Part shown: one piece after another, positions 1 through 39,343 of the stretch
Layout: each line of letters opens with the position of its first letter
Numbering within the stretch: the stretch's first letter is position 1
Virus record (IMG/VR): IMGVR_UViG_3300036846_001291
Location: 1-39,343 of that record
DNA length: 39,343 nt
From: a virus
Reading direction: 5' to 3' (one strand)
Translations under genes and position numbers: made by a program
Notes under the pieces: model-generated
Databases searched by the model: none
What the model was told of the DNA's origin: nothing
What the model saw: only the letters and a program-made list of their open reading frames with translations

Positions 1-283
1 CGAGGGCGCGCAGGATCGCCACGATTTCGTCGGGCGACTTGTCGGCAATGGGCACGTGCCGCCCCGCGTCGTCCACGAACGTCCAGTCGAGCAGGTACGC
101 GACCACGTGCGCCTGCGCGATCAGGAAAGGATCCACGCGCGACACGCCATCCGCGACGCGCACCATGCGTCCGCGGGTGTCGAGTTCCTCGCCGTGGGTG
201 AGGACGCGTTTCACGGTGATCGAGTCACCGTCGGAGAGCGGGAGCGTCACCGTGTCGGGACGGACAAAGCGCGAGCGCGGCAT
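1..283 (-). CDS. Tail assembly chaperone gpG, N-terminal part (cut by contig start)
   Basis: This is the first ~94 codons of the chaperone gene that appears complete at 38875-39324. Translation starts at the ATG at 283, and the reading frame runs off the left edge of the window. It lies 6 bases downstream of the preceding tail gene. It is a duplicate caused by the terminal redundancy, not a second gene. Confidence 0.9.
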   Translation of the reverse strand, partial: MPRSRFVRPDTVTLPLSDGDSITVKRVLTHGEELDTRGRMVRVADGVSRVDPFLIAQAHVVAYLLDWTFVDDAGRHVPIADKSPDEIVAILRAL

Positions 284-296
284 GGGGGGTCACCTT
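1..296. repeat. Terminal direct repeat, left copy
   Basis: Bases 1-296 recur at 39042-39337 (offset 39,041). The only internal difference is at 128 (A) versus 39169 (G). After base 296 the copies diverge, and the right copy ends in six unrelated bases. This is the usual sign of a circularly assembled or terminally redundant phage genome. The mismatch is a third-position proline codon change in the tail chaperone gene, so it looks like population variation rather than random error. Confidence 0.95.
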
Positions 297-565
297 TCCG
301 GCGGGCCAAGGCGCGCAGTGAGCGCGTCGCCCATAATCTGCAACGTGTCGATCGGCCACCGCCACCGCCCGTTGGCGTGGGGAGCCACAAACGCGAGCGG
401 GCGTTGCGTGACCCGGAACGCGTCGAGCGCGACGATCGTGGCGGTCAGTCGCCACGCGGGATCCGCGCCCTCGTCGGTGTGTTTCGTCACCGTCCAGGCG
501 CGCACGGTTCCGGCCGGGTAGTACCCGGCGCGGATCGTGCCCTCGACGCCCCGCACGGTGACCAT
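290..565 (-). CDS. Small tail-module protein (unknown)
   Basis: This 91-residue protein lies between the tail tube gene and the tail chaperone gene, 3 bases after the tail tube stop. It has mixed alpha/beta composition with a WRWPI segment near residue 70, no membrane segment and no signal peptide. Its position suggests a role in tail assembly or tail completion. I recognise no family with a defined function, so the role rests on context alone. Confidence 0.75.
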   Translation of the reverse strand: MVTVRGVEGTIRAGYYPAGTVRAWTVTKHTDEGADPAWRLTATIVALDAFRVTQRPLAFVAPHANGRWRWPIDTLQIMGDALTARLGPPER

Positions 566-568
566 CGA

Positions 569-964
569 CTAGTGGGAATGACCCCACGTGCCCGCGGCGA
601 CGAACGCCCCGGTCATCGTGACCGCGCCCTTCACGTCGACGTCGATCGTCTGATCGAGCCACGCGGGGCCGTACTCGTACGACGACGGGTAGAGCGACGA
701 CGGGTAGAGATACAGATCGACCCCGTTCGCCGAGTTGGATCCCGCGTAGAGCGCGTCGTCGGCGCTATCCCAAAACCCCGAGATGGTGCCCTTAATGTCG
801 GGCAACCCCTGCACGTAGACTTTGTTCAAATCGCCGAAGCAGGTGACCTCGACCTTGTCGCGCGTGCGATTGAGCGACCACTTCGACATCGACACGACGG
901 CGCTCACCGGGCCCCCGGCCGCGACCGCCATTTGAATCACCGCTTTGCCACCGTGGTACCGCAT
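569..964 (-). CDS. Major tail tube protein
   Basis: This 131-residue protein forms, by inference, the repeating subunit of the siphophage tail tube. The sequence has a KVEVTCFGD-type segment followed by GxxDIKGTISGFWD, a pattern typical of beta-barrel tail tube proteins that begin with a short lead-in and discriminate target sites through TxxGD-like strands. A strong ribosome-binding site (GGGAG) precedes the ATG, as expected for a highly expressed structural gene. It sits just upstream of the gpG/gpGT chaperones and the tape measure. A perfect 15-bp tandem repeat (680-709) encodes LYPSS twice. Confidence 0.8.
   Translation of the reverse strand: MRYHGGKAVIQMAVAAGGPVSAVVSMSKWSLNRTRDKVEVTCFGDLNKVYVQGLPDIKGTISGFWDSADDALYAGSNSANGVDLYLYPSSLYPSSYEYGPAWLDQTIDVDVKGAVTMTGAFVAAGTWGHSH
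680..709. repeat. 15-bp perfect tandem repeat in the tail tube gene
   Basis: Two identical 15-base units (680-694 and 695-709) lie in frame in the tail tube gene and encode LYPSS-LYPSS. The 15-base length preserves the frame, so copy-number change would lengthen or shorten a surface loop without breaking the protein. Confidence 0.9.
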
Positions 965-984: not shown

Positions 985-2643
985 TTAGTGAGTGTGAACC
1001 GCCGCGAGCGCGAGCAACTGTTGCAAATCGCCGATCACCGTCGCCGACCGGGTGACCCACGACGCCGCCGCGACGCGCGCGGGCAACGCCGCGGCGATCC
1101 GGGCCCGCTCGACCGGGCTCGCGAGCCACGCGCGAATCACGGCCGACGCCTCGTCCGGGGTGGTGAAGGTGGGCACGAGGTCGCCGAACACCTCGCCGAC
1201 CTCGGCCCGCGCCGTACTGACGTGGAACACCCCGCACGCGGCCAACTCGTACGCGCGCGGGTTCAGGGATTCCGCGTGCGCGATCGGCGGCGCGTTGCGG
1301 CCCCACCCCTTCGACACGCGGTAGAGATTGAGCCCGACCTGCGCGCGCCGGTAGAGCGACGCGGCGACCGCGTTGTGAATCTGCCTGCCGCGGACGAACG
1401 CCCGGAGCGGCGACCGCGATCCCAAGAGGTCCCACGAGCCATAGAGGCCGAGGTCGATCCCCGTCCAATCGATCGCGGTGAGCCACTCGACGCGCTCGCG
1501 GTTGCCCGACCCGACGAACACGACGTCGTGCGCGGCGACCGCGTCGTCGCCCGGCCGCGGGCCCGGCCGGTGGCGCTCGGGATGCCACCCGTGCGGGAGG
1601 AAGCCCATGCGCGGGTTCACGGCGCGGAACGCGTCGACGGCCGATCGCTCGTGCGTCCACCCGCCGTCCACGAGCGCGGCGATGCGTAGTTCGTGCTCCA
1701 TGTCGTAGGGCGTTTCCGTGAAGAGGATCACCACGCGCACGCCCGCGCGTTTGAGCAGGACGAGCACGTCGGGGTGCAAGTACATCGCGCTCACGACCAC
1801 GACGGCATCGACTTGGTGCCGCAGGGCCATTTCGAGCACCCCGAGGCCCGCGTGATAGAACACGTCGCTCGCGGTCGGCCGCTCGAAGTCGGGGCGGGCG
1901 CGCTTGACGCGCCGCCATGCGGTGTACAACCACCGCCGCGAGCCGTCGATCCGCTCGTCGAGGCGGTACCGGATCACGCGCACGCCGTGCGCCTCCAGGC
2001 CGAACCGCAACCCGGCCTCCACGTCGGCCGGGGCGACGCTCGCGCCGGGGTGCACGAGCAACACGAGCCCGCCGACGGCGGCGACGGTCGGGCGGCACGT
2101 ATAGACGACGGTCGGATCCCACACGAGCGCGTCGGCCGGATAGTGCGCGAGCGTGGACACGCAAAAATCGAAGTCGCCCTCGTAGCGGGTGCCCCACTGG
2201 CCGAGGCGCGCCGGATCGTTGGGCGGCACGAACTGCGGGGTCCCGTGGTTGCCGATCCGCACGACGGGGTCGGTCCACAACACGCGCCCGCCGGGCGCGA
2301 TCATGCGGAACATCACGGGTCGCCCCGGCGCGGCGGCGACCGCGGCCCGGATCGCCGCGAACGCGCCGGGCAGGAACGCGTCGTCGTCGTCGAGGAACAC
2401 GAGGTGCGTGCCCGTGGCGCGCGCGATCCCGAGCGTCCGTTCGTCGCAGCCGAAGTTGTGCCCCGGCGGGCACGCGATCCAGGTGTACCCGAACCGCGCG
2501 ACGGTGGCCGCGACGGGGTCGCCCTCGCCGACGACGAGCACCTCGTCCTCGGGCGCGAGGGGTTGATCGGCGAGCGACTGCAACGCCCGCGCGAGCGACG
2601 CGCGCCCGGTCGTCGGCACGATCACCGACAAGCGCGGCGTCAC
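985..2643 (-). CDS. Two-domain glycosyltransferase (GT2 N-terminus, CgeB-like GT-B C-terminus)
   Basis: This 552-residue protein starts at a GTG that overlaps the stop of the tail terminator gene (GTGA). Residues 4-190 are a family-2 glycosyltransferase: RLSVIVPTTGR at the start and a DDDD metal/nucleotide-sugar motif at 85-88. Residues ~205-550 look like a GT-B enzyme of the CgeB/glycosyltransferase-1 type, with FVGSGNRERVEWL and a C-terminal segment containing RAYELAACG followed by STARAEVGEVFGDLVPTF. The gene sits inside the tail operon, between the tail terminator and the tail tube. The inferred role is sugar attachment to a virion protein or surface polymer; the acceptor is unknown. There is no membrane segment, so it should act in the cytoplasm. 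Confidence 0.85.
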   Translation of the reverse strand: MTPRLSVIVPTTGRASLARALQSLADQPLAPEDEVLVVGEGDPVAATVARFGYTWIACPPGHNFGCDERTLGIARATGTHLVFLDDDDAFLPGAFAAIRAAVAAAPGRPVMFRMIAPGGRVLWTDPVVRIGNHGTPQFVPPNDPARLGQWGTRYEGDFDFCVSTLAHYPADALVWDPTVVYTCRPTVAAVGGLVLLVHPGASVAPADVEAGLRFGLEAHGVRVIRYRLDERIDGSRRWLYTAWRRVKRARPDFERPTASDVFYHAGLGVLEMALRHQVDAVVVVSAMYLHPDVLVLLKRAGVRVVILFTETPYDMEHELRIAALVDGGWTHERSAVDAFRAVNPRMGFLPHGWHPERHRPGPRPGDDAVAAHDVVFVGSGNRERVEWLTAIDWTGIDLGLYGSWDLLGSRSPLRAFVRGRQIHNAVAASLYRRAQVGLNLYRVSKGWGRNAPPIAHAESLNPRAYELAACGVFHVSTARAEVGEVFGDLVPTFTTPDEASAVIRAWLASPVERARIAAALPARVAAASWVTRSATVIGDLQQLLALAAVHTH

Positions 2644-3056
2644 TGCCCCACCCATATGCGGTACCGCCCGCCTCCGTGTTGCCACCGGATCGACGCGTCG
2701 AGGTCGTCGGGCTCGACGCCGCGGACGTACTCGTCGCGCGCCATGTGCATCAGGTCGTAGCTCTCGACCTCCAGGCTCCCGCCGTCGAGCAGGGCGTCGA
2801 TCTGCGCCGCCGCGGCGTCGACGGTTTGCCCGCTCGCGGAGAGCTGCACGGCTTTCACGAGGTAGATCGGGGCCTCGAAGGCGCGCGCGTTGAACATGCG
2901 GGTGTCCTCGCCGATCACGAGCGACACGATCACGAAGGCCGTCACGTTCTGTGGCGGATCGCCAAAAAACACCCCGCCGGGGCAGAGGCCCTGGAGCGTG
3001 GGGTCCGCGGCGAGCTTGGCGACGAGCGCGATATGCACGGCCGAGGAATCCGCCAT
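2640..3056 (-). CDS. Tail terminator / tail completion protein (DUF3168-like)
   Basis: This 138-residue protein begins with an alpha helix (SAVHIALVAKLAADPTL) and continues with a beta-rich core ending in GGRYRIWVGQ. That size and pattern fit the small proteins that cap the tail tube next to the neck. The gene follows the gp10-like neck gene with a TAATG overlap and precedes the glycosyltransferase. The family assignment rests on size, general pattern and gene order. Confidence 0.7.
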   Translation of the reverse strand: MADSSAVHIALVAKLAADPTLQGLCPGGVFFGDPPQNVTAFVIVSLVIGEDTRMFNARAFEAPIYLVKAVQLSASGQTVDAAAAQIDALLDGGSLEVESYDLMHMARDEYVRGVEPDDLDASIRWQHGGGRYRIWVGQ

Positions 3057-3472
3057 TACGCGGCCCCCCGCAAGAGAAACCCGTTCTGCACGAGCATCGT
3101 TTCGAGGTCCTGCCACATCCGCCGCCGCGCGCGGATCGCCGCCGGGATGAACACGTTGCCCGCGGGCATCGCGCCGCGGTTCGCGCCGATCGCGGTGTGG
3201 CGCGCCATCGTGCCGTGTTCGTAGATCCAGGCGTGGTGCGCCGTGTTCTTCACGACCCATTTCGCGACGAACCGCCCGCCCTCGAACTTCGACGCGTACA
3301 CGTGGTCGCGGAGGTTGCCCGTCACGACGGGATACGCGGCGCGGATCGTCGTCGTCGCGCTGTTCGCCGCCGCCTCGCAAATGTGATCGGCCTCGGCGTG
3401 CAAGTCGTCGGGCAGGGCGCGGAGCGCGGCCCGCACCTCCTCGAACCCGTCGAGCACGAGCTTCACGCTCAC
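3056..3472 (-). CDS. HK97 gp10-like neck/minor tail protein
   Basis: This 138-residue protein has the HK97 gp10 layout. It starts with a helix (FEEVRAALRALPDDLHAEAD), then has YPVVTGNLRDHVYA, a loop around AHHAWIYEHG and a basic C-terminus. Such proteins connect the head-tail junction to the tail. The GTG start overlaps the previous stop (GTGA). Order and size match the connector set of HK97-like phages. Confidence 0.85.
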   Translation of the reverse strand: MSVKLVLDGFEEVRAALRALPDDLHAEADHICEAAANSATTTIRAAYPVVTGNLRDHVYASKFEGGRFVAKWVVKNTAHHAWIYEHGTMARHTAIGANRGAMPAGNVFIPAAIRARRRMWQDLETMLVQNGFLLRGAA

Positions 3473-3822
3473 GCGACCACCTCGGCGCAAATCATCGCGA
3501 GTTCGACGGCGCGCTCGGCGGGGGTGATCACGCCGAGGACCGCGAACGTGCGCCCGTTGAACAGGATTCGCGTTTGCGAGGTGACTTGCGGGTGAAACGG
3601 GCCGGTGACGATATGCGACGCCTGCGCGAGGATCGCGCCCGCGGCCTTCACGCGTTCCAGGGCTTGTCCCGTCGCGGATTCGATCTTCACGAAGAGGGCC
3701 GGGGGCGCGAGGTCGGTCCACGCCTGCACGAATCCGCCGTGCCCGTCGGCGACGGGCGCGGTGGGGTTCTGAAACCACACCCGGTGCGGGCGCTCGCCGA
3801 TGTTCGTGGTCGGGCCGATCAT
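3469..3822 (-). CDS. Head-tail adaptor / head closure protein
   Basis: This 117-residue beta-rich protein contains HRVWFQNPTAPVADGHGGF near the start and SQTRILFNGRTFAVLGVI toward the end, a layout typical of head-closure adaptors of the SPP1 gp16 / HK97 gp7 kind. It would plug and extend the connector after DNA packaging. The ATG overlaps the connector stop (ATGA), consistent with translational coupling. Confidence 0.8.
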   Translation of the reverse strand: MIGPTTNIGERPHRVWFQNPTAPVADGHGGFVQAWTDLAPPALFVKIESATGQALERVKAAGAILAQASHIVTGPFHPQVTSQTRILFNGRTFAVLGVITPAERAVELAMICAEVVA

Positions 3823-4487
3823 AGGACCGTCACCGCCCGATAGGGATCGACCGCGTCCTCGTACCCGAGCGGCATTATCTGATCGTGCCCGCCGCGGCCC
3901 ATCACGGTCACCGCGTCGCGGCCCGCGGTGAGCAGGTGCGCCGCGAGCAACCCGACGGCGTGCACAAGGCGCGGCGGCAAATCCTGCGGCGTCGGCCACC
4001 CCACCACGAGGCGCAGGGCCCACGGTTGCAGGCCATATACGCTCGGCCACGGGCCGCTGCTCGGCGGGGCCACGACGATCCGGCCGGGGTTGCTGCCCTG
4101 ATCGGCGGTAACTGACGTGGGGTCGAGGGCGACGACGCCCGATTGGGTGCGCACCTGCCACGAGAGCACCGTCTGCACGGGCGCGCAGTACGTCGGGAGC
4201 AGGATCGGCGTCGCGCAGGGCGGCACGTGATCGAAGAACACATCGCGTGTTTGGGTGAGCAACGCGAGCCCGGTGTCGGCTTCGACGAACTCGCGGGCCG
4301 TCTGAATCAGTTGCGTCGCGAGGGCGTCACGCGGATCGCCGTCGAGCCAATCGAGTTCGGCGCGCAGTTTGACGTCGGCGATCGTCACCGGCTCATCGGC
4401 CGGGGGCTCGACGAGGATGCTCACCGCGTGCAACGCACCCGGATACGGCGTCCACGGCGACGGCGACCAGGGCCACCCCGGAATCAC
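3819..4487 (-). CDS. Head-tail connector (HK97 gp6 / SPP1 gp15-like)
   Basis: This 222-residue protein has the gp6-type core: EPVTIADVKLRAELD, then DALATQLIQTAREFVEADTG, and a C-terminal helical region beginning PRLVHAVGLLAAHLL. These proteins form a ring beneath the portal. The first ~35 residues are proline- and tryptophan-rich and precede the usual core, so the product is longer than typical. The GTG start overlaps the preceding stop. Confidence 0.85.
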   Translation of the reverse strand: MIPGWPWSPSPWTPYPGALHAVSILVEPPADEPVTIADVKLRAELDWLDGDPRDALATQLIQTAREFVEADTGLALLTQTRDVFFDHVPPCATPILLPTYCAPVQTVLSWQVRTQSGVVALDPTSVTADQGSNPGRIVVAPPSSGPWPSVYGLQPWALRLVVGWPTPQDLPPRLVHAVGLLAAHLLTAGRDAVTVMGRGGHDQIMPLGYEDAVDPYRAVTVL

Positions 4488-4773: not shown

Positions 4774-6012
4774 TTAGTTGAGGCCGGTGACCGTGCCGAA
4801 CGCGCCCGGCCGGTACACGGCGAGCGCGATCCGTTCCTCGGCGCGGATCGCGATCAGGTTCTTCACGAAGAAATCCACGTGCGAGTTCGACAACTCGACG
4901 CGCACCGCCCCCCGCGTGAACTCTTGCGCCGACCCCTGGAAGTCGCCGACGAGGCCGGTGCCCGCGACGATGGCAGGCGTGACGGCCACCGGGATCCCCC
5001 ACAACATCGGCGGTTGCGGCGCGGCCCACGGACCCGCGCCCATGTAGTTCCCTTGCGCGTTCTTCGCGATCGCGATCGCCTGCCAGTTGACCGGGTTCAG
5101 CACGATCCCGGTCGGTTGCACGAACGCCGTCGTCGCGATCGTGGTGATCTGTTTCAGGATCGCATCCATGTTCGTGTCGGTGCCTCGCGGGAGGGCCGGG
5201 GCGAGGCCGGGCGTCGCGAGGATCCCCAACAGGTCGGGCGGCACGCCGTCGCCGTTCAACAACTGATCGTCCTCGACGAGGTCGAGGCCGCGCCGCAAGC
5301 GCGCGTCAATGTACGACGCCAACGCGGGCACGTCTTCGAGCATTTCCTCGGTGACGGGCAACCAATGCGCGATCTTCGTGACGGGCACGGTCGCCTGCTC
5401 GAACACGAGCGCGGATTCCGGTTTCGCCGCGCCCTCGGCGACGGGGGCCGCGGCGTTCGTGAACGCCTTCTCGCGCAGGAAGATGAGGGCGTTGCTTTCG
5501 ACGGTGCCCTGCGCGAGCAAGTCGCTGATCATGGGCAGGCGCATCCCGAGCGGCACAATGCCGGGAATCACCTGCGGGAGCACGAGTTGGCCCCCCGATC
5601 CGGGCGACGAGTCGATCGTCGTCGCGTGCAGGTCGATCGTCGGCGACACCCACGATCCCGAGCGCCGATGCCCGCCCTCTTTGACGAACTTGCGGAACTC
5701 GGGGTGCTCGGCAAACTGTCGGCCCATCGACTTGATCGACGACGGGGCCACGATCGCGGCCTGCGCCGCCGGAATCGAGGCGAGCCCCGCGGTGAGGCGC
5801 TCGACCTCGGCGCTCATGCCCTCGGTGCGGATCGCGGCGTCCAGGCGCGTGCGGATCGCCTTGCCCTCGGCGAGCTTGGCGTCGACGGCGGCGATTTCCT
5901 CGGGGGTGCGGTCGCGCTTTTCGCTGGTCGCGCTCGCGACTTGCGACGTGATCAAGGATTCGATTTCCGTTTTCTTGGCGGTCAGGTCGCGCTGGAGTTC
6001 AGCAGTGTTCAT
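4774..6012 (-). CDS. Major capsid protein, HK97 fold
   Basis: This 412-residue protein has the classic HK97 layout. Residues 1-~90 form a charged coiled-coil delta/scaffold domain (AELQRDLTAKKTEIESLITS). The mature domain begins around residue 130 with a GGQLVLPQVIPGIVPLG segment, followed by a P-domain containing VPVTKIAHWLPVTEEMLED. The RRGLDLVEDDQLLNGDG region and FVKNLIAIRAEERIALAV near the end are typical. The scaffold part is presumably removed by the adjacent S49 protease. I chose the ATG at 6012 because the coiled coil begins there. Confidence 0.95.
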   Translation of the reverse strand: MNTAELQRDLTAKKTEIESLITSQVASATSEKRDRTPEEIAAVDAKLAEGKAIRTRLDAAIRTEGMSAEVERLTAGLASIPAAQAAIVAPSSIKSMGRQFAEHPEFRKFVKEGGHRRSGSWVSPTIDLHATTIDSSPGSGGQLVLPQVIPGIVPLGMRLPMISDLLAQGTVESNALIFLREKAFTNAAAPVAEGAAKPESALVFEQATVPVTKIAHWLPVTEEMLEDVPALASYIDARLRRGLDLVEDDQLLNGDGVPPDLLGILATPGLAPALPRGTDTNMDAILKQITTIATTAFVQPTGIVLNPVNWQAIAIAKNAQGNYMGAGPWAAPQPPMLWGIPVAVTPAIVAGTGLVGDFQGSAQEFTRGAVRVELSNSHVDFFVKNLIAIRAEERIALAVYRPGAFGTVTGLN

Positions 6013-6037
6013 GGCGGGTTCTCGCGGGTGAAAAGGG

Positions 6038-10641: not shown

Positions 10642-11141
10642 TGCGTCACGGGGGCCACGGGGGTGGATAGGGGAAGCGGCGCGTCGAACTCCGTAAACGC
10701 GTCGCCCCCCGGTCCCGGTCCATCCGTTTTGACACGTGAGCGGCTCGACGGCGTGAGCCCGAGTTCGGGCCACAACTTCAGACACCCGGCGAGCGCCTTC
10801 GTTTGAATCGACAACCACGGATTCGGCATCGCGTACCCGCTCGGGGATTTCAGCACGCGCGGGTACGCCTTCGCCCGCGCTTCGAGGTAGCGATCCCACT
10901 CCAGGCAGAGCGCGAGCAGGGCGGCGCGGTCGGCCTCGGTGACTTGCCTGCACGCGCGCAACATGGGCGCGAGGCGTCGCCACTCGGCCTGCGCGCCGGG
11001 GAGGTCCGCGAGTTCGCCCGGCGGCTCGTCGAACGTGTGGTCGACGGCGGGCGGCGCGGGCTCGGCCGCGTTGAGGGGCCGTCGACCCGCGTTCCCCGCG
11101 AGCTTGCGGTGCACCGTCGACTTCGGCTTGCGACCTCTCAC
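10638..11141 (-). CDS. Terminase small subunit, P27 family
   Basis: This 167-residue protein opens with the P27-family signature RGRKPKSTVHRKLAGN followed by GRRPLNAAEP, then a helical region (PGAQAEWRRLAPMLRACRQV, SIQTKALAGCLKLWPELGL). It recognises the packaging site and recruits TerL. The GTG start overlaps the methyltransferase stop. The C-terminus is Pro/Gly-rich. Confidence 0.9.
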   Translation of the reverse strand: MRGRKPKSTVHRKLAGNAGRRPLNAAEPAPPAVDHTFDEPPGELADLPGAQAEWRRLAPMLRACRQVTEADRAALLALCLEWDRYLEARAKAYPRVLKSPSGYAMPNPWLSIQTKALAGCLKLWPELGLTPSSRSRVKTDGPGPGGDAFTEFDAPLPLSTPVAPVTH

Positions 11142-12685
11142 GCGGGCACCACCTCGCCGTCTTTGCGGGCCTTCGCGCCCGTGAACGCTTCCCACCGATC
11201 GACGACGATCTGACAGTAGACCGGCTCCAGTTCCGCCGCGATCACCCGCCGCTCGCCGAGCTGCACCGCCGCGATCACCTCGGGCCCCGTGCCCGCGAAC
11301 GGCACGCCCACGAGGTCGCCCGGCGCGCTACTCGTGCGCAACGCCCGGATCATCATGGCGACGGGTTTCGGCGTCGCGTGCCCGAAGCGTTCCTCGCCGA
11401 CCACCCGCGGGAACGTCCACACGTCGGTCATCGTGTCGTGCCCGTTGTCGAAGAACGTCCGCGCCTCGCGCAGGCGCGCCGACAACTCGCGACGGTGCGT
11501 GTTGCCGCCCTCGCGCACGACGCCGAACACCCGGTCGAACAGGTCGGCGTACGGTTCGACGAACGCCCGGCCCTCGGCCGCGATCTGCAAGTGGCGGTAC
11601 TGGCGCTCGGCGATCGGGTGAAATTGCGAGGTCGTGAACCAGTGCCCGGCCATGTGCGTGCCGGTGATCCGGTTCACGTCGGTGTTCGTCCACCCCGCCT
11701 TGTCGCGCTCGGCGACGAGCCACGTGCGCAACGGGTCGTACCCCGGCCAATAGTCGGCCTTGTTTTGGTTGCCGAGAAACTGTTGCCCCCGCATCAGGAA
11801 CAAGCACCGCTCCGTGCACGGCGGATACGAGTGGCCGAGGTCCGACGCCATCCCGAACGCCGATCCCTTGTTCCACACGAGTTCGTTGCGCACCATGAGG
11901 CCCTCTTCGTCGCCGAGCCCGCCGCGCCACCACCACCGCCATAGATCGGGCGCGGTGCCCCACACGTACGCGCTCCCGTTGTCGGCGAGGACCGCGACCC
12001 ACGCGCGCCACCATTGCATCTGAAACGCGTCCAGGTGCGCGCCGTGCAAGTTGTCGTTCGCGATCCCGTCGGCCTCTTTCCCCATGCCGTAGGGCGGATC
12101 CGCGTGCAGGACGCTACACCGCTCGCCGCCGCTTAACTGCGCGACCGCCTCGGGGCGCGTGGTGTCGCCACAATACAGGCGGTGGTCGCCGAGCGCGATC
12201 ACGTCGCCGCGGGCGATCGCCGTGGTCCGCGGCGGCGGAATGTCCTCGGGATCCGAGTGGCCGCGGTGCAACGTCGCGGGCAGGATCGCGTCGAGTTCCT
12301 CGTCGGTGAAGAACGGCGCGAAGTCGAGGCCCTCCCGTTGATCGGCGGCGAGTTGGTCGACGTTCCACTCGGCCAACTCCGCGGTGCGATTGTCGAACAT
12401 CGCCAGGTCCCGCTTTTGCGCGTCGCTCAACCCGCGGCGGCGCACCGCCACGAGCGCGTCGCCCGCGGCCTCGACCACGTGGACCCGCACAATTCCCGCT
12501 TGGTGCGCCGCCGCGACGACGCCGTTCCCCGCGAGCACCGTGTCGTGTTCGTCGATCACGATCGACCGCGCCGGGCCGACGGCCCGTAATGCCGTGGCGA
12601 TCATGTCGACGTTGCGGGTGCCGTGCGTGCGTCGGTTCTTCGGATCCGCGACGAGCGCCGCGAGGTCGACTTCGTTTTCCGCCAC
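11138..12685 (-). CDS. ParB-domain DNA methyltransferase fusion
   Basis: This 515-residue protein has an N-terminal ParB/Srx-like domain (~1-110; GNGVVAAAHQAG at 53-64) fused to an amino-methyltransferase. The catalytic DPPYG motif (196-200) precedes the SAM-binding FAGTG motif (463-467), the circularly permuted order of beta-class N6-adenine/N4-cytosine methylases. The likely role is modification of phage DNA, for protection or packaging control. The GTG start at 12685 has a perfect GGAGG site upstream. It lies directly upstream of TerS, a position shared by many HK97-like phages. No partner restriction enzyme is visible. Confidence 0.93.
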   Translation of the reverse strand: MAENEVDLAALVADPKNRRTHGTRNVDMIATALRAVGPARSIVIDEHDTVLAGNGVVAAAHQAGIVRVHVVEAAGDALVAVRRRGLSDAQKRDLAMFDNRTAELAEWNVDQLAADQREGLDFAPFFTDEELDAILPATLHRGHSDPEDIPPPRTTAIARGDVIALGDHRLYCGDTTRPEAVAQLSGGERCSVLHADPPYGMGKEADGIANDNLHGAHLDAFQMQWWRAWVAVLADNGSAYVWGTAPDLWRWWWRGGLGDEEGLMVRNELVWNKGSAFGMASDLGHSYPPCTERCLFLMRGQQFLGNQNKADYWPGYDPLRTWLVAERDKAGWTNTDVNRITGTHMAGHWFTTSQFHPIAERQYRHLQIAAEGRAFVEPYADLFDRVFGVVREGGNTHRRELSARLREARTFFDNGHDTMTDVWTFPRVVGEERFGHATPKPVAMMIRALRTSSAPGDLVGVPFAGTGPEVIAAVQLGERRVIAAELEPVYCQIVVDRWEAFTGAKARKDGEVVPA

Positions 12686-30295: not shown

Positions 30296-30513
30296 AGCGG
30301 GGCTACTCGCGCGACTTCCCCGTGCTCCGCGGCGAGGGGAAACGCTTCACGCTCACCGACATTCCGGCCGGGTTCTGGACGCGCGTTCGGGCAAAGGCCC
30401 GCGCCGAGCGCGTGTCCATGCGCGCGTTGATCCTCGGCTTGCTCAAAACGTGGATCGACGAGCCCGCGGCGCTCACCGCCGATGAGCAGGCGCGCCGAGG
30501 GGGTGCGCAATGA
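30292..30513 (+). CDS. Ribbon-helix-helix DNA-binding protein
   Basis: This 73-residue protein starts at a GTG overlapping the previous stop. It has a strand (KRFTLTDIPAGFWTRVRAKA) and helices (RVSMRALILGLLKTWIDE), the CopG/Arc pattern. It may regulate the integration region. Confidence 0.65.
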   Translation: MKRGYSRDFPVLRGEGKRFTLTDIPAGFWTRVRAKARAERVSMRALILGLLKTWIDEPAALTADEQARRGGAQ

Positions 30514-30662
30514 CCCCGGCCGTGTCGCCCCTGCGGATCGTGTTGATGGTCGGGGGCCTGCTTGCGCTGATCCCGTTGACGATCCTGTTCGGGATCTTCG
30601 GATTCCTCGCCGCGTTGTTCTTCGTGGCGCTCGCCGCGCTCGCAAAGTCGGGGGGTGCGTGA
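30510..30662 (+). CDS. Tiny two-segment membrane protein
   Basis: This 50-residue protein is almost wholly hydrophobic (VLMVGGLLALIPLTILFGIF, then GFLAALFFVALAALA) with a short polar end. It overlaps the gene before by 4 bases and the integrase start by one base (TGATG). It could be a small membrane toxin-like or lysogeny factor; no family is recognised. Confidence 0.7.
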   Translation: MTPAVSPLRIVLMVGGLLALIPLTILFGIFGFLAALFFVALAALAKSGGA

Positions 30663-31789
30663 TGGGCGTCTTCACCCGGCCCGATTCACCGTGGTATTGG
30701 TTGTGGCTGGAAGCCATGCCTGCGGGGCGCGAGAAAGAGAAAACCAAGATCCGCGTCGGCGCGACGCCCGCCGAGCGGCGCACGAACCGGGCGCTCGCCG
30801 AAACCCTCTACCACCAACGCATGAACGCGATCGCGACGCGGGCGCACCGCTTGCCGGTGACGCTCGACGCGGTGACGTTCGACAAGTACGCCGACGCGTA
30901 CGAACTGCACACGATCCCGACCCACAAGGGCGCGACGCGCGAACGCGAAATCCTCGTGCCCCTGCGCGCGTTCTTCGGGACACACGAGGTCGCGGCGATC
31001 GATCCCGACCTCGTGCGCGAATACTGGACCGCGCGCCGAGCGGCGGGCGCGAGCGTCGCCACGATCAACCGCGAAGTGGACGTCCTGAAGGCGATGATCC
31101 GCGACGCGGCCCCGAAGTACGTCGACAAGTCGCCGCTCGCGGGTATGCCCCGCCTGAAACCTGGAGAGAAAGACACCCCGCCCGCCGTGCGCCGGGTGCT
31201 GAGCGAGGCCGACGAAGCGCGCCTGCTCGCGGTGTGCGACCCGGTCGATCGGGCCTTGTACGTGCTCGGGGTCGACACGCTCGCCCGGCTCGGCGATTTG
31301 CTCGACCTCACGCGCGCCGACCGGCACGGGATCGACCTCGCGATCCGCAACCCGAAGGGCGGGAAACCCTACACGGTGCCCCTGAGCCCGCGCGCCGAGC
31401 AGGCGCTCGACGCCCTCACGCACGCCGACGCGCACTACTTCGCGAAGTTCCGCCGGGCCCGCAACCCGCGGGATTGGCGCTCGTCGGTGCGGCAACGATT
31501 CGAGCGGCTCGCCGCCGCCTGCACGCCGCCGATCCCGTTCGGCCTCGCCGTCGGCGGGTTCACGTTCCATGGCACGCGCAAAACGGGGGCGACCCGCCAC
31601 GCGCGCAAGGGCACCCGGCTCGACGTGGTGCAACGCCTCGGCAACTGGAGACGTCCCGACGTGTTGCTCCGCGTCTACACTGAAGTGGGCGACGCCGATC
31701 TGCGCGCCGCCGTCGGGCGCGAGGTGAAACCGACGACGCCGCCCCGCTCGCGGCGCACGTCCTCGAAGCGGCGACGCGCCGCGAGTTGA
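30662..31789 (+). CDS. int: Tyrosine recombinase / integrase
   Basis: This 375-residue protein is a site-specific recombinase. A SAM-like core-binding region runs from ~70 to 160, and the catalytic domain from ~175 to 350. Recognisable residues are Arg209 (TLARLGDLLDL), a lysine hairpin (NPKGGKPYTVPL, 230-241), the H-x-x-R motif His303/Arg306 (FHGTRKTGA), LGNW (326-329), where many relatives have LGHS, and nucleophile Tyr339 (RVYTEV). It should integrate the phage into the host tRNA-Ala site described just downstream. The stop is at the edge of attP. Confidence 0.95.
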   Translation: MGVFTRPDSPWYWLWLEAMPAGREKEKTKIRVGATPAERRTNRALAETLYHQRMNAIATRAHRLPVTLDAVTFDKYADAYELHTIPTHKGATREREILVPLRAFFGTHEVAAIDPDLVREYWTARRAAGASVATINREVDVLKAMIRDAAPKYVDKSPLAGMPRLKPGEKDTPPAVRRVLSEADEARLLAVCDPVDRALYVLGVDTLARLGDLLDLTRADRHGIDLAIRNPKGGKPYTVPLSPRAEQALDALTHADAHYFAKFRRARNPRDWRSSVRQRFERLAAACTPPIPFGLAVGGFTFHGTRKTGATRHARKGTRLDVVQRLGNWRRPDVLLRVYTEVGDADLRAAVGREVKPTTPPRSRRTSSKRRRAAS

Positions 31790-38803: not shown

Positions 38804-39324
38804 TCAGGGCTCCTCATCGCGCGGGCGTTGTTCGGCGATCAACTGCTCGACGAGCACGGCGTACACGTCGGGATCTAACTCGGTAACCCACTCGTACCGC
38901 CAGCCACACCGACGAGCGATGGCAAGGTCGCTGGCGACCTGCTCCCGCCATCCCGCCCGTTTTTTTCCGCGGTGCGTTCCTTCGCGACCGCGGCGCGGTG
39001 CGCGGCGATCGCGTCGGCGATTTCCTCGAAGGAGTCGTCGTCGAGGGCGCGCAGGATCGCCACGATTTCGTCGGGCGACTTGTCGGCAATGGGCACGTGC
39101 CGCCCCGCGTCGTCCACGAACGTCCAGTCGAGCAGGTACGCGACCACGTGCGCCTGCGCGATCAGGAAGGGATCCACGCGCGACACGCCATCCGCGACGC
39201 GCACCATGCGTCCGCGGGTGTCGAGTTCCTCGCCGTGGGTGAGGACGCGTTTCACGGTGATCGAGTCACCGTCGGAGAGCGGGAGCGTCACCGTGTCGGG
39301 ACGGACAAAGCGCGAGCGCGGCAT
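38804..39324 (-). CDS. Tail assembly chaperone gpGT (-1 frameshift product)
   Basis: Joining residues 1-122 of gpG to the -1 frame at the slippery site gives a 173-residue fusion. The 51 added residues contain REQVASDLAIARRCGWRYEW and PDVYAVLVEQLIAEQRPR, typical of the T part of gpGT, which binds the tape measure. The stop at 38804-38806 is 3 bases before the tape measure GTG, the expected arrangement. Confidence 0.9.
38875..39324 (-). CDS. Tail assembly chaperone gpG (zero-frame product)
   Basis: This 149-residue protein has the gpG layout: a beta start (DTVTLPLSDGDSITVKRVLT), a central FLIAQAHVVAYLLDWTFVDD and helical ILRALDDDSFEEIADAI. It guides tail assembly. After residue ~122 (slippery site) the frame becomes Gly/Ser-rich and probably dispensable. 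The start is 6 bases after the preceding tail gene at the redundant end. Confidence 0.9.
   Translation of the reverse strand: MPRSRFVRPDTVTLPLSDGDSITVKRVLTHGEELDTRGRMVRVADGVSRVDPFLIAQAHVVAYLLDWTFVDDAGRHVPIADKSPDEIVAILRALDDDSFEEIADAIAAHRAAVAKERTAEKNGRDGGSRSPATLPSLVGVAGGTSGLPS
38959..38965 (-). other. Programmed -1 frameshift site A AAA AAC
   Basis: Read on the - strand, seven A (38966-38960) followed by C give the heptamer A AAA AAC in the correct phase (codons GAA AAA AAC). After slipping -1, the ribosome continues at 38959 and reaches a stop at 38806-38804. The phase and the coding match of the extension make this the programmed site. Confidence 0.9.
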
Positions 39325-39337
39325 GGGGGGTCACCTT
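39042..39337. repeat. Terminal direct repeat, right copy
   Basis: This is the right copy of the terminal repeat, matching 1-296 with one substitution at 39169. It contains the start of gpG. The following six bases do not match the left side. Confidence 0.95.
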
Positions 39338-39343
39338 ATCATT

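Follow-up and report, generated by a model that had tools for sequence, protein, structure and literature searches.

A phage glycosyltransferase inherited with the tail-tube gene points to a probable tail-tube glycosylation module

We analyzed a 39,343-nt viral record, called here the window, in which a two-domain glycosyltransferase (GT) gene lies within the tail structural operon. The gene encodes a soluble-looking, GT4-like GT-B domain with intact motifs; the coding region for this domain immediately precedes the genes for one subfamily of major tail (tail-tube) protein (MTP), and the two travel together between phages. We consider it likely that this gene supplies the enzyme of a tail-tube glycosylation module in which one slot, for glycan-tailoring enzymes, is variable. 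The pattern suggests that these phages glycosylate their own tails with sugars that vary. As far as the accessible literature goes, virion glycosylation by phage enzymes has been demonstrated in only a few mycobacteriophages. A separate version seems to exist in a group of environmental phages, where enzyme and likely substrate have neighbouring genes that are inherited together.

The enzyme and the late operon around it

The source phage is presumably a temperate siphovirus, and the window encodes a tyrosine integrase (30482-31789), RecT and an exonuclease. Its large terminase matches scattered phages, all at no more than 42% identity. Because the ends of the window (1-302 and 39042-39343) overlap by 302 nt at 98% identity, the record is probably close to complete, that is, a circularly mapping genome in which the overlap is present as two slightly different copies. 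Elsewhere in the window, a 515-aa protein (11138-12685) has hits to PHROG families of two kinds, ParB-like and DNA methyltransferase.

The gene order 5' of the enzyme is capsid protease, major capsid protein (MCP, 4774-6015), head-tail adaptor (3819-4469), head closure Hc1 (3469-3828), Neck1/HK97-gp10-like (3056-3499) and tail terminator (2640-3077); the coordinates of these genes and of the enzyme, its domains and the genes 3' of it all refer to the minus strand. MCP lies in the same operon as the enzyme; like Hc1 and Neck1, it was assigned by Pfam and PHROGs, and the adaptor by PHROGs. The putative tail terminator, Tail_completion_gp17-like, is identified by its position, which is syntenic in relatives, and by a sub-threshold Pfam match. 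Downstream of the enzyme, 17 nt separate its end from the GTG of the MTP gene (569-967), which is assigned to the tail tube by PHROGs (phrog_10528) and by fold: its model (pLDDT 90) resembles tail tubes such as monocin MttP and lambda gpV. This gene is followed by one for a 91-aa protein (290-565).

The enzyme gene (985-2643) has a GTG start and encodes 552 aa. A sequence-only reading had described it as a GT2 domain with a DDDD motif at residues 85-88, fused to a CgeB-like GT-B domain, overlapping the tail terminator by four bases and lying just before the tail tube, and each of these points was borne out. The overlap is GTGA (2640-2643), shared by the terminator stop and the GT start. Pfam matched Glycos_transf_2 (PF00535) at residues 5-97 with 29.8 bits against a cut-off of 23.3, and Glyco_trans_1_2 (PF13524, CgeB-like GT-B) at residues 384-526 with 59.7 bits against a cut-off of 25; Pfam gave no match to a T4-type GT family in the window. 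The GT2 domain and linker span residues 1-187 (2083-2643) and correspond to separate GT2 ORFs in relatives. The DDDD motif (2380-2391) is found there as a (D/N)DD string in 46 of 48 distinct GT2 relatives, and a YEGDFDF motif in the GT2 half is common to several of them. The GT-B domain (985-2082) contains an EX7E motif running from E458 to E466 (1246-1272), whose second Glu is present in all 102 aligned family members and whose first is present in 92. Structure prediction, which the same reading had proposed, yielded an AlphaFold model of the whole enzyme with a pLDDT of 81.6, weak at residues 126-168, within the GT2 half, and at 184-190. Its GT-B half has a GT4-like fold, matching the GT4-type enzymes BshA, MshA, GlgM and PimA in Foldseek (E ~1e-9 to BshA and MshA).

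Compared with the 81% identical enzyme of relative L004, the GT2 part has a dN of 0.15 and a dS of 1.00 (dN/dS ~0.15), and the GT-B part a dN of 0.12 and a dS of 0.88 (dN/dS ~0.14). These ratios argue for a functional gene rather than a chance ORF; judged from these alignments, both halves are under purifying selection, and the predicted catalytic motifs DDDD and EX7E are intact. No convincing membrane segment was found in the enzyme, and its borderline hydrophobic stretches are strands and helices of the domains in the model.

Placement of the GT-B family and the slot upstream of it

With the enzyme protein as query, 27 IMG/VR loci were found, and a GT-B profile search matched 276 loci, of which the best 80 were used. 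In most relatives, the GT-B half alone matches, as a separate ORF immediately 5' of the MTP gene. Among unique close loci with at least 500 nt of downstream sequence, the MTP gene lay 9-136 nt downstream of GT-B in 69 of 69. A larger set, combining the earlier loci with a scan seeded with the most distant GT-B member, comprised 96 non-redundant loci; here the MTP gene followed within 400 nt in 93 and within 673 nt in 95, and the exception (L322) has a head-tail adaptor-like sequence after GT-B instead of an MTP gene.

The GT-B family shares with CgeB-like/Glyco_trans_1_2 proteins of GT4 type the PF13524 match, the EX7E motif and the GT4-like fold, yet it forms a distinct phage family, for which no PHROG was found in PHROGs and no sequence relative in the PDB. 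No credible match came from tblastn searches of 50,697 phage records with the GT, the MTP and a distant GT-B, and 84,980 prokaryote genomes held only four GT-B matches. The one close match among these is a 5.6-kb contig in a Propionibacteriaceae metagenome-assembled genome, with the order GT-B then MTP; it is perhaps a phage or mis-binned.

The region upstream of GT-B is variable. Some loci have GT-B immediately after the tail terminator (or Neck1); in others, one to a few genes intervene. At least one slot-type gene lies within ~2.2 kb 5' of GT-B in 80 of 90 non-redundant loci. The 64 slot proteins include 36 SAM methyltransferases, 8 GT2 proteins and 5 radical-SAM proteins (4 SPASM, 1 B12-binding), together with one Methyltransf_24/TylF protein and one DegT aminotransferase. 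In the window, the slot gene is a GT2 fused to GT-B. The conserved unit is the GT-B half, and the GT2 fused to it is one partner among several that can take each other's place. Radical-SAM enzymes encoded in the slot before GT-B and MTP at L106 (1143-4793) and L070 (988-2055), one with a B12-binding domain, represent unusual chemistry within a virion operon.

The abundance of SAM methyltransferases, along with the radical-SAM/SPASM or B12 enzymes, could also mean that the cassette mainly does chemistry other than tube glycosylation, methylation or radical-SAM reactions, and that DNA or a small molecule is the target of the GT; DNA methyltransferase-like genes are also present in the window. 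However, GT-B is what stays constant in the cassette, and some slot enzymes are of sugar-tailoring types (TylF, DegT). DNA-glucosylating GTs accompany hydroxymethyl-pyrimidine pathways, and none was noticed in this case; nor would a DNA GT be expected to be co-inherited with the tube. We give this reading very little credence.

Co-inheritance with one tail-tube subfamily

MTP scans from both sides yielded 153 distinct MTPs, each with at least 1.3 kb of upstream sequence. All 91 MTPs with an adjacent GT-B fell into a class marked by YLYP and Y.YG(P/T/V)(A/S)(W/F), whereas all 62 without GT-B fell into another class. In the window, this signature reads YLYP...Y.YGPAW (MTP residues 86-103; 659-712, minus strand), and it is restricted to GT-B-linked MTPs. 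Tyr88 is present in 100% of the GT-B-linked MTPs and in none of the others, Ser79 in 98% versus 5%, and Trp103 in 98%, a position at which the other class has Tyr in 100%. On the MTP tree, the signature and the presence of GT-B coincide in a single split and, taken alone, amount to one event. We rejected the signature by itself as proof of an acceptor site, since it reflects one phylogenetic split with many differing columns.

The independence of the linkage comes from the flanking genes, which are mosaic. On trees that are noisy, being built from short proteins, the GT label changes once for MTP and twice for the 290-565 gene, compared with 11 times for the tail terminator, 14 for Hc1, 15 for Neck1 and 16 for the gene at the chaperone position. 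A concatenated tree of Hc1, Neck1 and the tail terminator from 60 phages required 9 changes, at least 3 of them forced by starred branches, compared with 1 for MTP; for example, L214, which has the GT, and L134, which lacks it, are sisters on this tree. Because label changes are few on the MTP and 290-565 trees and many on those of their neighbours, GT-B, MTP and the 290-565 gene are exchanged between backbones as a unit, a pattern that an enzyme-substrate pair would be expected to show. The 91-aa product of the 290-565 gene may itself be a further substrate, or it may associate with the tube.

The same data bear on whether the GT modifies some other virion component, such as the capsid, a minor tail protein or the 290-565 protein, its adjacency to MTP reflecting no more than the clustering of late genes. 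GT2 homologues also occur between MCP and the head-tail adaptor in several phages (L009-L011, L018-L019), the 290-565 gene is likewise co-inherited with two label changes, and in mycobacteriophage Che8 the GT cluster is distant from its target genes. Nevertheless, GT-B is not free to move, being pinned to MTP at nearly all loci, and its presence tracks the MTP subfamily although the flanking genes exchange; we judge a different virion target to be unlikely.

Placement and co-inheritance also weigh on a role at the host surface (serotype conversion or superinfection exclusion) or in making a secreted polymer, during infection or lysogeny. Gtr-type phage glycosyltransferases are known, and the present phage looks temperate, with its integrase. 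In Gtr serotype conversion, however, a membrane-bound GT acts with a GtrA flippase near att/int, whereas the window's gene lies in the tail operon, distant from the integrase, and encodes no clear membrane helices, only the borderline stretches modelled as parts of its domains; no GtrA-like flippase was seen. Its position between the tail terminator and the tube gene, and its inheritance with the latter, make a host-surface role highly improbable in our estimate. The sequence-only reading had supposed that a conserved placement would mean decoration of the phage's own tail or of a secreted polymer. The placement proved to be conserved in the homologue search that it proposed, and the gene to be co-inherited with the tube gene; together they support the tail option. 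The polymer option is disfavoured because of the late structural operon, the lack of any flippase or convincing membrane segment, and the linkage to the tube.

Proposed working and comparison with known systems

In the proposed tail-tube module, GT-B would be made in the late operon alongside the tube protein and, acting in the cytoplasm with a host nucleotide-sugar as donor, would place the first sugar on a Ser, Thr or Tyr of this protein, either ahead of tube assembly or while it proceeds. The slot enzyme, whether a GT2, a methyltransferase, a radical-SAM enzyme or an aminotransferase, would then extend or alter this sugar, and the tail surface would be decorated differently in each lineage. 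Alternatively, the sugar could be accepted by a different virion protein, such as the product of 290-565 or the capsid, and in a few loci the GT lies beside the head-tail adaptor instead of MTP (L322, and L027, L040 and L041 with a distant GT-B). In the latter three (L027 1156-3274, L040 979-3100, L041 1-1992), the distant GT-B is accompanied by two GT2 genes 5' of the adaptor, and the L027 MTP has no YLYP...Y.YGPAW signature; these genes may form a parallel cassette with the capsid as its target.

Phage-encoded GTs are reported to glycosylate the capsid and tail-tube subunits of mycobacteriophages Che8, Corndog and Myrna (Freeman et al. 2023, as relayed in PMC12363180, PMC12619734 and PMC11256854). 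Both systems have phage-encoded GTs. Che8 gp108 is a fusion of GT2 and Methyltransf_24/TylF, and the slot gene of L014 (5998-7209) has the same domain order, although direct similarity between the two is weak. The arrangements differ: in Che8 the GT cluster (gp108-gp110) is found towards the right end of the genome, and nothing separates the tail terminator gene from the MTP gene, whereas the window's GT sits between these genes in the tail operon, pinned to its presumed target gene. In a six-protein search, GT-B had no match among gp108-gp110, and the window's GT2 matched gp108 only at a borderline, generic level (E 4e-5). The MTP profile did not find the Che8 MTP in a comparison at the sequence level. 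Because GT-B has no detectable homology to the Che8 GTs, yet gp108 shares the L014 architecture, we class the module with phage virion glycosylation by its presumed way of working, but outside the Che8 family. A parallel outside phages is FlmG of Caulobacter, described as a cytosolic flagellin glycosyltransferase (PMC7591256). There, a structural protein that self-assembles into a tube is O-glycosylated by a cytoplasmic GT dedicated to it, and the window's enzyme would work alike; the FlmG system serves a bacterial appendage with another enzyme.

A broader reading, about which we are closely divided and lean slightly to doubt, is that this is a widespread, undescribed module of uncultured phages, in which a phage-specific GT-B is locked to a matching tube subfamily while the slot diversifies the glycan, resembling an O-antigen cassette but placed on the virion tail and perhaps hiding the tube from host immune sensors or particle predators. 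The putative decoration might serve for shielding from such sensors or predators, or for adhesion. The prevalence and purpose of sugar-coated tails become directly testable questions: the enzyme-substrate pair is compact enough for co-expression in E. coli, the YLYP...Y.YGPAW stretch of MTP is a candidate acceptor region, and the tailoring enzymes offer natural variation.

Finally, three relatives (L013 3963-4595, L014 8322-8954 and L017 7117-7730) have inserts of ~190-245 nt that break up the MTP gene around codons 55-62, with in-frame stops and slightly different insertion points. An Rfam search of the inserts gave no relevant match. They carry the group-I-intron-like core strings GAGACTAAGC ... 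GCAATAGTCCG, and may represent small self-splicing introns within the MTP gene.
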